A stretch of 64,000 bases of DNA from Halodesulfovibrio spirochaetisodalis (GTDB lineage: Bacteria; Desulfobacterota; Desulfovibrionia; Desulfovibrionales; Desulfovibrionaceae), in contig NZ_JXMS01000007.1 of assembly GCF_001672295.1 (NCBI RefSeq), positions 1 through 64,000 of the forward strand, in the 5' to 3' direction. The notes under the pieces are model-generated. The model was not told the origin of the DNA, made no database searches, and worked only from the letters and a program-made list of their open reading frames with translations. This document shows, one piece after another, positions 39,799 to 44,492 of this stretch. The first letter of the stretch is position 1. Each line of letters opens with the position of its first letter. Made by a program: the position numbers and the translations under genes.

Positions 39799-40185
39799 CT
39801 ATTCTTTCTCTTTCAGCTGCGGCTTGTCAGATGAGTTCTTACACATATTGTCATATGCGTGAGAAAAAACGTTATTCACATCTTCCATGGAAGACATTCC
39901 TCTCATCTGCCCGGCAAGATATCCATGTAGAAAACCACGTTCGTATGAGAAAACCTTGGCTAAATCCATTTCTGTAGCCTTCGGGTTTTGCTCTTTGAAT
40001 ATTTTCTCACCTTCAGTGAAGTATTGCTTGGCAATCTCATTTTTACGCATCTCAAGAGCAAGATATCCACACTGGATTTTGTTCTTGTAGTTACCGGTAA
40101 GAGGAGCTTCTTTCATTCCTTCAGGAGCCGCTACTGCAACCTGCGCAATAAGCATCAGTCCCAGAGCCAGTACAAGTGCTCTCAT
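39799..40185 (-). CDS. Small exported protein of unknown function
   Basis: This 128-residue protein has a clear signal peptide (MRALVLALGLMLIAQVAVAA). I chose the start at 40185, where AAGGAAG lies 5 nt upstream; the frame continues to 40317 but that extension lacks a ribosome site. The mature part is about 108 residues, mostly helical, with two Cys (IQCGYLAL and DNMCKN) that could form a disulfide in the periplasm, and it ends in a charged KPQLKEKE tail. No family is recognised. It is a single gene, divergent from nrdD. Confidence 0.75.
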   Translation of the reverse strand: MRALVLALGLMLIAQVAVAAPEGMKEAPLTGNYKNKIQCGYLALEMRKNEIAKQYFTEGEKIFKEQNPKATEMDLAKVFSYERGFLHGYLAGQMRGMSSMEDVNNVFSHAYDNMCKNSSDKPQLKEKE

Positions 40186-40552
40186 TTTCTCTTCCTTTTT
40201 ATTATGATTGTATGCTGTGCACACCTTTTCGGGCACGGTTTGCGGTAACAACATGACACAAACTCTTCCGCTCGCCTTGCACTCAAAAGTGATAACAACA
40301 CTTTCTACGCTGAACACTCATTATTTGGAAGTATCTTTGCAATTATTTAGAATAATACATCACTTAAGTATAACCGATTTCCGCGCAACTTTTCGTAACT
40401 CAAGTCACAGTTTGCAGTACTTTTAACATTTTTTTTATGCGTAGGAGAAGCCTATTTTTGAGTAACCAAGCGTGCTAATTCGCACAAGTGCAAAAACGGT
40501 ACATCCAAATTGTGCGTAAAAAAAATACATCAGCTAATTCGGATAATTACAC

Positions 40553-40579
40553 TGTGGATTACGTGTTAATCTATCCACA
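40553..40579. promoter_or_regulatory. Inverted DnaA-box-like 9-mers upstream of nrdD
   Basis: TGTGGATTA (40553) and CTATCCACA (40571) face each other, each with one mismatch to the DnaA consensus TTATCCACA or its complement. The exact 7-bp arms TGTGGAT/ATCCACA are separated by 13 nt. A nested hairpin (GCATCAA/TTGATGC within AAAAAGCAT/ATGCTTTTT) follows at 40579-40616. Confidence 0.35.
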
Positions 40580-40644
40580 AAAAGCATCAACCTACTTGAT
40601 GCATAACATGCTTTTTGTTAGCTCTTTCCCACCCAAAGAAGACT

Positions 40645-40806
40645 CCCTTCAGGAGCCGAAAGGCGCAAAGGAAATCCGGTCGAAAATCCGGTGCGGTCCT
40701 GCCGCTGTAATCTTGCCTGCTTTCCCACAAGCTACCGCCCACACGGTATACCGGCAAGAAAGCCAGCCCCTTCCTGAAGTCAACCGGCACAGAGCGTACT
40801 GCCGGT
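40645..40806 (+). ncRNA. Cobalamin riboswitch upstream of nrdD
   Basis: The leader shows the conserved cobalamin aptamer core: AGCCGAAAGGCGCAAAGGAA, then ATCCGGT-CGAA-AATCCGGT, then GCGGTCCTGCCGCTGTAAT, close to the B12-box consensus. The closing stem P1 pairs CTTCAGGA (40647-40654) with TCCTGAAG (40772-40779). Just after it, ACCGGC (40783-40788) pairs with GCCGGT (40801-40806), a likely expression platform. The aptamer ends about 160 nt before the nrdD start. Adenosyl- or related cobalamin would turn expression off, as in known switches of this class. Confidence 0.9.
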
Positions 40807-40967
40807 ATATATCCAAATAATCCATAACCTGTGCCTGCGTATATTGGGGTTCTGCCGCAATATACACATCCCAGGCTGCAAGATGTCGAATTGCTATCGC
40901 GCGATGCATGCGTTCTTTACGTGTGCTCTTCTTTTGCCATGCACTTTCTATGACGTCCGGAGTTATA

Positions 40968-43040
40968 ATGCCCAAACAGATTCTCAAGCGAGACGGTTGC
41001 ATCGAAACTTGGTCCCTCGAACGAATTGCCCAAGCTATCCTCAAAGCACTCAAAAGCAGTGGCATCAAAGACCCACTTCTTTCCAAACGCCTTGCTCGTA
41101 AGGTAGAAGAAAAACTTGCAAATGTTGAAGCACCTGAGCAAGAGCAAGTACAAGACACAGTACAGCAGGTACTGATGGAAGCCCGCTTGTACGCCGTTGC
41201 TGAACGTTACATTATCTACCGTGAAAAACGTCGTGAAATGCGTACACAGGATCAGGCTTACTTTGACGTATCCAGCATGATCGAAAGCTACCTTGACCGC
41301 AGTGACTGGCGTGTAAATGAAAACTCCAACATGGGTCATTCTTTTCAGGGTCTCATTCTGCATATGGCAGGCTCTGTTCAGGCTCGTTACGTGCTTGAAA
41401 AATATCCAGAAGAAATCCGTCAGGCTCACACTCACGGTTACTTCCATGTTCACGATCTTTCTTTCGGTCTTGCAGGCTACTGCTCAGGCTGGAGCCTTCG
41501 CGATCTCCTGCTTGAAGGTTTCAACCTCGAAGGCCGTTGCTGCTCTGCACCTGCAAAACATTTTGATTCCGCATGCGGACAGATTGTAAACTTCCTTGGA
41601 ACACTGCAGAACGAATGGTCCGGCGCTCAGGCATTCAACAACGTTGATACCTACCTTGCTCCGTTTATCCGCAACGATAATCTCGACTACCCGACTGTAC
41701 GTCAGCAGATCCAGAAGCTTGTATACAACCTGAACACTACCTCCCGCTGGGGCGGCCAAAGCCCGTTCACCAACTTTACGTTTGATATGGTTGTTCCGGC
41801 ACACATTGCTAATGAACCTATCATCATTGGTGGTGCATTCCAGGATACAACCTACGGTGATTACCAGAAAGAAATGGATATGATTAACCGCGCATTCCTC
41901 GAGGTTATGCTCGAAGGCGACGCTGATGGCCGTATCTTCTCTTTCCCGATCCCGACATACAACGTTACCAAAGATTTTGATTGGGATTCTGTTCCAGCCC
42001 AGCTCTTAATGGAACTTACAGCCAAGTATGGTGTTCCGTACTTCCAGAACTTCATCAACTCCGATCTTAATCCGGAAGATGTTCGTTCCATGTGCTGCCG
42101 TTTGCAGATGGATCTTCGCGAAATCCGTAAAAAGACCGGTGGCCTGTTCGGCGCTGGCGACCTCACTGGTTCCATCGGCGTTGTAACTCTGAACTTGCCG
42201 AAACTTGCGTACCTTGCTCACAACGAAGAAGACTTCCTTGATCTTGTTGAAGAATACGCAGAAATGGCTAAAGAATCTCTGGAATTCAAGCGCAAGCTCT
42301 GCCAGCAGAACCTTGAAGCGGGCATGTTCCCGTTCTCACGCCGCTACCTCAAAAACGGCTACAAAGGTCACTTCTCCACCATCGGTCTTATCGGTGGCCA
42401 TGAAGCATGCCTCAACCTGCTCGGCAAAGGTATTGAAACTGAAAGCGGCCTGCGCCTTATGCGCCGTGTTCTCAACCACCTGCGCGCACTTACTGTTCGT
42501 TTCCAAGAAGAAACTGGCAACCTGTACAACCTTGAAGCAACTCCGGGTGAAGGTACCTGCTACCGTCTTGCCAAAACAGACAAAGACCTCTACGCAGACA
42601 TCGTTTCCGCTGGTAATGAAGTACCGTACTACACCAACTCGACTCTGCTTCCAGTAGGTCTTACAGGGGACGTATTCTACGCTCTTGAGCACCAGAACGA
42701 ACTCCAGACCTTGTACAACGGCGGTACCGTATTCCATTCCTTCCTCGGCGAAGCTGTACCGGAACCGGAAAGCGTAAAGAACTTCCTCATCAAAGCAATG
42801 AGCAACACAAAAATTCCTTACATTTCCGTGACCCCTACCTTCTCCATTTGTAAGGAGCACGGCTACATTAATGGTGAACACTTCAATTGTCCGACTTGTG
42901 GCAGCGAAGCAGAAGTGTACACCCGTGTAGTTGGCTACTACCGTCCAGTAAAACGCTGGAACAAAGGTAAACAAGAAGAATATCGCCAACGTCAGGAATA
43001 CGCACTTAGCGCGCTCACTGACTGCTGCTGCGGAAGCTAG
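40968..43040 (+). CDS. nrdD: Anaerobic (class III) ribonucleoside-triphosphate reductase
   Basis: This glycyl-radical enzyme makes deoxyribonucleotides without oxygen or B12. The 690-residue protein starts with an ATP-cone regulatory domain (QILKRDGCIETWSLERIAQAI, residues about 4-90). It has the catalytic barrel with SRWGGQSPFTNFTFD and NSTLLPVG. It ends with a zinc-binding segment (Cys641 and Cys644 in FNCPTCGSEAEVY) and the glycyl radical loop RVVGYYRP (Gly656). The start at 40968 has CCGGAG 5 nt upstream. No nrdG activase gene is adjacent. A cobalamin riboswitch in the leader implies B12-dependent repression. Codon use is that of a highly expressed gene. Confidence 0.95.
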   Translation: MPKQILKRDGCIETWSLERIAQAILKALKSSGIKDPLLSKRLARKVEEKLANVEAPEQEQVQDTVQQVLMEARLYAVAERYIIYREKRREMRTQDQAYFDVSSMIESYLDRSDWRVNENSNMGHSFQGLILHMAGSVQARYVLEKYPEEIRQAHTHGYFHVHDLSFGLAGYCSGWSLRDLLLEGFNLEGRCCSAPAKHFDSACGQIVNFLGTLQNEWSGAQAFNNVDTYLAPFIRNDNLDYPTVRQQIQKLVYNLNTTSRWGGQSPFTNFTFDMVVPAHIANEPIIIGGAFQDTTYGDYQKEMDMINRAFLEVMLEGDADGRIFSFPIPTYNVTKDFDWDSVPAQLLMELTAKYGVPYFQNFINSDLNPEDVRSMCCRLQMDLREIRKKTGGLFGAGDLTGSIGVVTLNLPKLAYLAHNEEDFLDLVEEYAEMAKESLEFKRKLCQQNLEAGMFPFSRRYLKNGYKGHFSTIGLIGGHEACLNLLGKGIETESGLRLMRRVLNHLRALTVRFQEETGNLYNLEATPGEGTCYRLAKTDKDLYADIVSAGNEVPYYTNSTLLPVGLTGDVFYALEHQNELQTLYNGGTVFHSFLGEAVPEPESVKNFLIKAMSNTKIPYISVTPTFSICKEHGYINGEHFNCPTCGSEAEVYTRVVGYYRPVKRWNKGKQEEYRQRQEYALSALTDCCCGS

Positions 43041-43121: not shown

Positions 43122-44492
43122 CTAGTTTTTTAAGCTATGAATCGGTGCAGGAATACGTCCACCAAGATTAATGAAGGATTCTGCATTACCACCAGGAACG
43201 GCCATAATCTGTGCTTCACCAAGCAAACCACCAAAAGAAACAGTATCTCCCACGCCCTTATCAGGAACAGGAATAATACGTACAGCTGTTGTCTTACTAT
43301 TGATCATACCGATTGCCATTTCATCAGCAATGATGCCGGATAATGTTGCAGCCGATGTATCACCAGGCACAGCCACCATATCAAGGCCTACTGAACAAAC
43401 ACTGGTCATGGCCTCAAGTTTTTCCATGGTCAATGCGCCAGACGCTGCGGCTGCTGCAATGCTTGAATCTTCTGATACCGGAATAAATGCACCGGATAAT
43501 CCGCCAACGTGGGACGACGCAAATGCACCACCCTTTTTCACAGCATCATTCAACATAGCCAAAACAGCTGTTGAACCTGGGGCACCAATGGATGAAAGGC
43601 CAATGGCTTCAAAGATTTCACCCACGGAATCTCCTACCTCCGGTGTCGGTGCCAATGACAGATCAGCCACACCAAACGGTAGACCAAGGCGTTCCGCAAC
43701 CTCTGTACCGATAATTTCACCGACACGGGTCACTTTAAACGCAGTACGCTTAATTACCTCAGCAATATCACCAAGACTCTTGGCACTTCCGCTCTGTACA
43801 GCCCTATCGATAGCTTTTTTCACAACTCCGGGGCCGGAAACACCTACGTTAATAACAGCTTCAGGCTCACCAACTCCAAGATACGCTCCCGCCATAAACG
43901 GTACATCTTGAGGAATATTGGCAAACACAACCAGCTTGGCGCACCCCAGGCCATCTTTATCTGCTGTACGCGCAGCAATGTCCTTAATACGCTGCCCCAT
44001 AAGAGCCACCGCATCCATATTAATGCCGCTTCTGGATGATGCAACGTTAATAGAAGAACATACTCGCTGCGTTACTGCCAAAGCCTCTGGCAAAGAATCA
44101 ATGAGAGCTCGATCGCCCTTAGTCATTCCTTTTTCAACCAACGCACCGAATCCGCCGAGGAAATCAACACCTGCTTCTTGAGCAGCTTCGTCAAGAATCT
44201 TACACGCCTTCACCATCTGCTCAGGCGTATATGAGGCACATACAACCCCCATCGGACTAACGCTGATGCGCTTGTTCACGATAGGAATGCCGTACTTGTC
44301 GCCTACCTCATTACAAGTAGACACAAGTTTTTGTGAATAATGTCTAATTTTGGTGCGGACTCTATCAGCAAACACGTCAAAGTCGTGACTTGCGCAATCG
44401 AAGAGGCTGACACCAAGTGTAACGGTACGAACATCCAAATGCTCGTTTCTGAGCATAGCTAAAGTACTGAGCACTTCGCGATCTGAAAGCAT
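43122..44492 (-). CDS. UPF0210 family protein
   Basis: This 456-residue cytoplasmic protein matches UPF0210 (PFL-like): [19 protein letters not shown], then [34 protein letters not shown] and [42 protein letters not shown] and [21 protein letters not shown] end the protein. AAGGAT precedes the ATG. It is 80 nt downstream of an ACT-domain gene. The same two-gene order (ACT-domain UPF0237 then UPF0210) recurs in many bacteria, so they form a functional unit. The biochemical role is not established. Confidence 0.92.

Follow-up and report, generated by a model that had tools for sequence, protein, structure and literature searches.

A survey of 535 cobalamin sites sorted their targets into four categories, namely biosynthesis, transport of B12 or its precursors, cobalt transport, and isoenzymes of B12-dependent enzymes (PMC3766115). 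The closest described relatives of the element analysed here are the B12 elements that Rodionov et al. (2004, PMC545781) reported before nrdDG of Desulfovibrio vulgaris and of Desulfuromonas; they give a precedent for the statement of the initial annotation that riboswitches on B12-independent isoenzymes are known. According to the sections of that paper dealing with reductases, B12 was proposed in 2004 to repress the B12-independent enzyme in favour of NrdJ, and all delta-proteobacteria studied were stated to have NrdJ. The locus described below shares with these elements the class III target, the presence of NrdJ in the same genome and the proposed logic. It differs in that the window copy has diverged to a sub-threshold score; the same sections of PMC545781 mention no lost kissing loop, no conserved second hairpin (H2) and no switch before nrdJ.

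Corrinoid riboswitches that have been studied are said to depend on a kissing loop between L5 and L13, and corrinoid-activated switches exist (PMC10653944). The P. megaterium metE and A. halodurans cobT switches of that work, with their P13 hairpin and terminator logic, provide a template for the present leader; they require the L5-L13 kissing loop, however, whereas the window leader lacks the partner sequence. Atypical switches are also described at metE and ppe2 of M. tuberculosis (PMC11260477): ppe2 has altered junctions and ligand choice, and metE encodes a B12-independent isoenzyme. Unlike the leader studied here, both are reported to have retained a kissing loop, and reading frames upstream contribute to their action. 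The literature collection searched contained no work on Halodesulfovibrio riboswitches or on a class III reductase of this genus with a cobalamin riboswitch.

The nrdD locus

The window, that is, the whole stretch of 64,000 nucleotides that was analysed, corresponds to contig C57 of a 59-contig, 3.6-Mb Halodesulfovibrio genome that is 99% complete. The gene at 40968 encodes a class III ribonucleotide reductase carrying an ATP cone, identified by profiles NF006126 (1045.7 bits, cut-off 548) and TIGR02487 (549.8 bits), both scores exceeding the cut-offs. Its closest titled relative, 99% identical, is the NrdD of a Halodesulfovibrio MAG. No nrdG adjoins the gene, and the next gene (43122-44492) has the opposite orientation. 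The features of the locus are as follows.

40596-40624, plus strand: promoter-like sequence TTGATG - 17 nt - TAGCTC, recognised by eye against TTGAC..TAGACT/TAAACT before related leaders
40634-40791, plus strand: divergent cobalamin (RF00174) aptamer, a covariance-model match of 28.0 bits, below the cut-off of 31.5
40647-40654, plus strand: 5' strand of P1, pairing with 40772-40779, read from the sequence and lying inside the model match
40697-40701, plus strand: L5, UCCUG (consensus UCCCG, PMC10653944)
40713-40752, plus strand: distal P6 arm, 17% invariant columns, without the L6 motif sought (conservation and motif comparison)
40761-40770, plus strand: remnant of the B12 box, AGCCAG (40761-40766), followed by a J6/3 that reads CCCC.. 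where AAGACC is usual, from the model alignment
40772-40779, plus strand: 3' strand of P1, pairing with 40647-40654, read from the sequence
40783-40806, plus strand: hairpin at the P13 position, ACCGGCA/TGCCGGT, its loop not complementary to L5 (folding z -2.89, complement scan)
40828-40875, plus strand: H2, a further conserved hairpin, second after the aptamer, carrying GGTTCTGCC at its apex (40848-40856), folding z -2.11
40906-40936, plus strand: terminator-like hairpin with U-rich tail TCTTCTTTTG (terminator scan, folding z -5.92)
40957-40962, plus strand: Shine-Dalgarno sequence CCGGAG of nrdD, read from the sequence and the leader alignment
40968-43040, plus strand: nrdD, class III ribonucleotide reductase, 690 aa up to the last codon before the stop (reading frame and profile matches)

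A consensus promoter scan missed the promoter-like site at 40596-40624. If this site is used, the RNA would begin just 5' of the aptamer.

A divergent cobalamin aptamer upstream of nrdD

The initial annotation had recognised a cobalamin aptamer in the nrdD leader and proposed a covariance-model search as a check. The outcome was divided: at Rfam gathering scores the whole window gave zero RNA matches, while at a lowered threshold RF00174 matched 40634-40791 over model positions 1-189, that is, over its full length, with 28.0 bits (E = 3.5e-5 in 701 bases searched with all families; E = 4.3e-5 in the whole genome). A match to the same family lies directly 5' of nrdD in all ten Halodesulfovibrio genomes, the window's included, with scores of 28, 25.8, 34.5, 29.2, 82, 28.2, 30.7, 34.3, 36.7 and 36 bits for G000 to G009; five of the ten exceed the cut-off. 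In other genera, RF00174 copies of 97.9-108.1 bits were found just 5' of nrdD in 9/38 titled loci at gathering scores. Since the match recurs at the same place throughout the genus and strong copies precede nrdD in other genera, the sub-threshold score reflects more than chance. Formally, the leader falls short of the curated RF00174 cut-off, gives a significant full-length match and is orthologous to clear members of the family. The presence of an RF00174-family relative before nrdD is therefore confirmed.

The closing stem of 8 bp was found exactly where it had been placed, 40647-40654 (CTTCAGGA) pairing with 40772-40779 (TCCTGAAG). When the window leader was compared with those of five close relatives, aptamer segments were 82-100% invariant, as against 17% for the distal P6 arm and 47-55% for linkers, a difference arguing that the aptamer RNA is still held by selection. 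AdoCbl-II (RF01689) was considered as an alternative identity and ruled out, as none of 20 genomes, the window's among them, had a match at E <= 0.001.

With class I cobalamin riboswitches (RF00174) the window leader shares P1, the P3-P5 core, the AGCCAG box and the order of the parts. It differs from them in J6/3 (CCCC.. versus AAGACC), in L5 (UCCUG), in lacking the L6 motif and in lacking a partner for L5; neither the L5-L13 kissing loop nor the purine-rich J6/3 and L6 motif of class I was found. Because J6/3, L4, L5 and L6 no longer resemble those of class I, adenosylcobalamin is only the presumptive ligand, and the alteration of J6/3 hints that corrinoid preference may have shifted.

Two states of nrdD leaders

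Seventy-three nrdD leaders of the family were gathered, 71 of them with a B12 box; L153 and L207 lack the box (the start of L207 being misplaced) and were left out of the comparison of states. The leaders fell into two groups. Those in state I have J6/3 AARACC or close to it, L5 UCCCG and a CGNGGA loop after P1, with the L6 motif in 27 of 34 thinned rows. Those in state II have a pyrimidine-rich J6/3 and L5 UUCUG, UUCCG or UCCUG, and they lack both CGNGGA and the L6 motif. Among 56 rows remaining after removal of near-duplicates, J6/3 starting with AA and CGNGGA occurred together in 33, AA alone in 1, CGNGGA alone in 0 and neither in 22; the Fisher test on these counts ignores shared ancestry.

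A complement of L5, with at most one bulge, was present within 65 nt after the aptamer in 45/45 state I leaders (expected 13.0) and in 5/24 state II leaders (expected 3.5), these rows including near-duplicates and the control being a plain letter shuffle; L167 and L171, in which the pattern gave no L5, were left out. In the window leader and its five close relatives the count was 0/6, one bulge allowed. Riboswitches at other loci served as a control (43 loci, searched with a narrow pattern): 9 of 12 parsed sites had the complement, with 3.2 expected, and three sites with J6/3 AAGACC and L5 ACCCG or GCCCG lacked it under this pattern.

Nine of the ten Halodesulfovibrio nrdD leaders, the window's included, are in state II; the exception, in G004 (82 bits), is in state I. 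When mapped on the NrdD tree, state II is seen in Halodesulfovibrio, genus g8 (see below) and genus g33 (L151, L160). These genera are not joined, the deep forks lacking resolution, and the fork that places g33 among state I lineages has support of 92/92, short of what was taken as firm. A repeated origin of state II is likely on this pattern. Leader L160 combines a state II J6/3 with an L5 that is still UCCCG and with CGGGA in an open loop, which shows that the J6/3 and kissing-loop features can separate; L203 has a state I J6/3 with L5 UUCCG and no CGNGGA. Against the state II reading, an L5 complement occurs in L126, which precedes nrdJ, and in L127, a state II nrdD leader from G016 that is not among the 24 counted above. 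The new elements here are the derived state itself, the absence of a partner for the kissing loop and the recurrence of this state before reductase genes.

Many state I leaders (L168-L200) have, at a conserved distance of about 30 nt from the ATG, a UCCGC(G) element that could pair with the L13 loop CGCGGA. Its role as a second L13 partner in state I was considered and set aside, most single tests not being significant. Among leaders with a CGAGGA loop, covariation between L13 and UCCGC was seen in L145 and not in L142, L148, L149, L150 or L166. The window leader has neither the UCCGC element nor the matching L13 loop.

Hairpins between the aptamer and the initiation codon

The second hairpin noted earlier (ACCGGC/GCCGGT) exists and comprises 7 bp (40783-40789 with 40800-40806). 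Among the stretches of the window leader folded against shuffled sequences, all picked after the stems were seen, it gave z -2.89, with 1/200 shuffles as stable. Its distance to the nrdD ATG at 40968, put at about 160 nt in the initial annotation, is 161 nt. The suggestion that it could be the expression platform did not hold for a platform of the usual kind: since L5 has no partner in any of the six leaders (the window's and those of its five close relatives), this hairpin is not a normal P13.

Hairpins resembling H2, with varying stems, occur in many leaders. The mean z was -2.11 over 24 leaders, with p <= 0.05 in 15/24, in a test biased towards the motif because the leaders were picked by it (48 of 57 tried, 24 after removal of near-duplicates). 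Further downstream, a terminator scan covering 751 bases on both strands gave four matches, with 0.8 expected, one of them being the hairpin at 40906-40936. This terminator-like hairpin is present in 6/6 of the window leader and its five close relatives, in 0/4 of the other Halodesulfovibrio leaders and in 19/73 nrdD leaders overall. A helix (H3) closing beside the Shine-Dalgarno sequence, attractive by eye across genera, was rejected, since most single-leader tests were not significant and the corresponding window stretch, 40884-40962, folds like shuffled sequence (z 0.03).

Predicted accessibility of the Shine-Dalgarno sequence averaged 0.40 with the aptamer, 0.41 for the platform only and 0.51 when the platform was shortened by its first 60 nt, in 68 leaders; the corresponding values for the window leader were 0.12, 0.25 and 0.23 and gave no clear sign of Shine-Dalgarno hiding. 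An alternative pairing coupling P1 to the terminator-like hairpin was looked for in the leader, and none was found. To that extent the earlier remark that the OFF mechanism is not obvious still stands; it gives way in so far as the terminator-like hairpin just before the Shine-Dalgarno sequence may serve, and the OFF step may thus act on transcription at that point.

Reductases and riboswitches elsewhere in the genome

The genome was searched for the B12-dependent enzyme that the initial annotation had named as a point to check, and one class II nrdJ was found at C33:22957-24633 (728 bits). No cobalamin match lies in the 1,057 bases upstream of it. A second class III pair, nrdG-nrdD (L208; G000 C56:60300-63700), encodes an NrdD 75% identical to that of the window and an NrdG2 of 151.6 bits; in the 700 bases upstream of nrdG there is no cobalamin match. 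The genome gave no match to a class I beta subunit. Since the pair on C56 has no cobalamin match, B12 could not silence class III reduction completely in this way; it would lower one of two class III enzymes. The genome has a second cobalamin riboswitch, on contig C15, which is canonical (92 bits, L5 UCCCG, J6/3 AAGACC) and precedes genes for CbiK and a FecCD-type permease. Because a canonical B12 riboswitch precedes cbiK, B12 switches are in use in this genome.

A cobalamin-type switch before nrdJ in a related genus

Sixteen genomes were examined from the related genus g8, which is probably Maridesulfovibrio and includes the MAG Desulfovibrio sp. Glu_egg_str_bin110. RF00174 matches precede nrdD in 15/16 of them (E <= 0.001; two of the 15 below the cut-off) and precede an NrdJ-like gene in all 11 genomes that have one (L213-L216, L219-L225). 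The NrdJ-like proteins score 390.4-410.3 bits against TIGR02504 (cut-off 399.95), 8/11 above the cut-off. One protein examined, that of G016, matches NrdJ_Z (403.9 bits), has a TSCPD domain and ends in six cysteines, a feature described for class II reductases (PMC5704485). A search for a class I beta subunit in 21 genomes, including all 16 of g8, gave no match. These class II features and the lack of a class I beta subunit make the NrdJ-like enzyme of g8 very probably B12-dependent.

By J6/3, 10/11 of the g8 nrdJ leaders are in state II, the exception being L222 (AACTCC, L5 UGCUG). Against the state II reading, 8/11 of these leaders contain an L5 complement, with 1.8 expected. In minimum-energy folds this complement was mostly paired in 7/8, that of JL220 being mostly unpaired; in four state I leaders folded alongside it lay in an open apical loop. 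One covarying hairpin is common to both kinds of g8 leader, nrdD and nrdJ, with 4 pairs changed on both sides (shuffled mean 1.2; 2/500 shuffles as high). A model of this hairpin matches 16/16 nrdD and 11/11 nrdJ leaders of g8, being built from 13 nrdD and 10 nrdJ rows that are largely the same leaders. Elsewhere in 348 genomes it gave one weak match in G218 and one match in G221; weak matches in other genera (G310, G322, G341; 23.6-27.9 bits) had no NrdD or NrdJ at the loci.

In five of the 16 g8 genomes (G216, G217, G227, G228, G229), all near-complete, no match to NrdJ or NrdB was found. Each encodes two NrdD proteins, and a cobalamin-type switch still precedes nrdD; class III enzymes seem to be their only reductases. 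This differs from the account in PMC545781, where NrdJ is stated for all species studied. The proposal that B12 shuts off NrdD in favour of NrdJ, made in the initial annotation as for D. vulgaris nrdDG (PMC545781), fits the presence of nrdJ in the window's genome. As the switch precedes nrdJ in g8 and 5/16 of its genomes lack that gene, a plain swap of isoenzymes is not a general rule for state II. The interpretation in print for relatives is partly supported for the window.

Interpretation of the nrdD leader

We consider it somewhat probable that this leader still works as an RF00174-type corrinoid riboswitch, though in a derived form, lowering nrdD expression without an L5-L13 kissing loop. 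A corrinoid would bind the aptamer core and steady P1-P3; without the kissing loop, the signal would run through P1 and the hairpins that follow, and expression of nrdD would be lowered, in all likelihood because formation of the terminator-like hairpin (40906-40936) is promoted or the Shine-Dalgarno sequence is hidden. Plentiful corrinoid would then mean less of the window NrdD, with nrdJ and the riboswitch-free nrdG-nrdD pair staying on. The OFF sign is presumed wholly from published precedent (PMC545781; PMC10653944). Counting for such a switch are the full-model match, its occurrence in 10/10 genomes of the genus, selection on the core, class I copies in sister genera, the presence of nrdJ, the canonical switch preceding cbiK and the terminator-like hairpin in 6/6 leaders; counting against it are the score below the cut-off, the missing kissing partner, the patchy terminator, the lack of a coupling pairing, the z of 0.03 and the nrdJ switch of g8.

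The leader might instead belong to the ordinary class I OFF riboswitches for adenosylcobalamin and simply score low, with the usual kissing loop and the hairpin at 40783-40806 as its P13. The position and stem of that hairpin fit P13, leaders in sister genera are class I, and in the window leader and L138 three pairs could form between CAG of the loop CAGAG and CUG within L5. An L5 complement was found in none of the six leaders, however, against 45/45 in state I, and the J6/3 and L6 motif were lost along with the CGNGGA loop; we regard this possibility as improbable. Equally improbable in our view is decay, in which the ligand response has been lost and a structured leader is all that is left. 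The sub-threshold score, the disappearance of the kissing-loop partner and of the J6/3, L4 and L6 features, and a graded loss within Halodesulfovibrio, where G004 still has 82 bits and state I, would all fit a relic. A relic does not readily account for a core that is nearly invariant while the P6 arm is free to vary (window and five close relatives), nor for state II in three genera unjoined in the NrdD tree, deep forks being without resolution there.

The findings in g8 bear on a different possibility, that nrdD is turned ON or that something other than a corrinoid is sensed, state II being a re-specified aptamer tied to ribonucleotide reductases generally. RF00174 before both nrdD (15/16) and nrdJ (11/11) with a covarying hairpin common to both, the count of 0/21 genomes with a class I beta subunit, and the five of 16 g8 genomes that keep a switch before nrdD with no NrdJ match are consistent with it, as is the existence of corrinoid-activated switches (PMC10653944). 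The RF00174 core is still recognisable, though, and nrdJ of the window's genome has no such match in about 1 kb upstream, and we give this reading a low probability as well. A broader conjecture, slightly less doubtful but still unlikely, is that state II forms a separate, reductase-dedicated branch of the cobalamin-type switches, which lacks the standard kissing loop and is coupled instead to other conserved hairpins. Such switches would set the levels of both NrdJ and NrdD in one genus and, in the genus of the window, that of NrdD; ligand choice or sign would have changed, and the outcome would not be a simple swap of isoenzymes.

Returning to the derived corrinoid switch that we favour, the joint change of J6/3, L5 and L13 before one gene in several genera amounts to a natural experiment on the co-evolution of ligand pocket and signal path. 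Because the g8 switch also precedes a B12-dependent enzyme, the reading of reductase B12 switches as a means of swapping to that enzyme is called into question.

Additional observations

A further cobalamin match (L049 4858-5064, 65.6 bits) lies downstream of nrdD in Desulfovibrio sp. UBA6079. In the window, a reading frame of 172 codons (39799-40317, minus strand) adjoins the leader and has no NCBIfam or Pfam match at E <= 0.001. Between this frame and the promoter-like site of the leader lies an inverted repeat, TGTGGAT..ATCCACA (40553-40579), which could be a regulator site, for example for NrdR.
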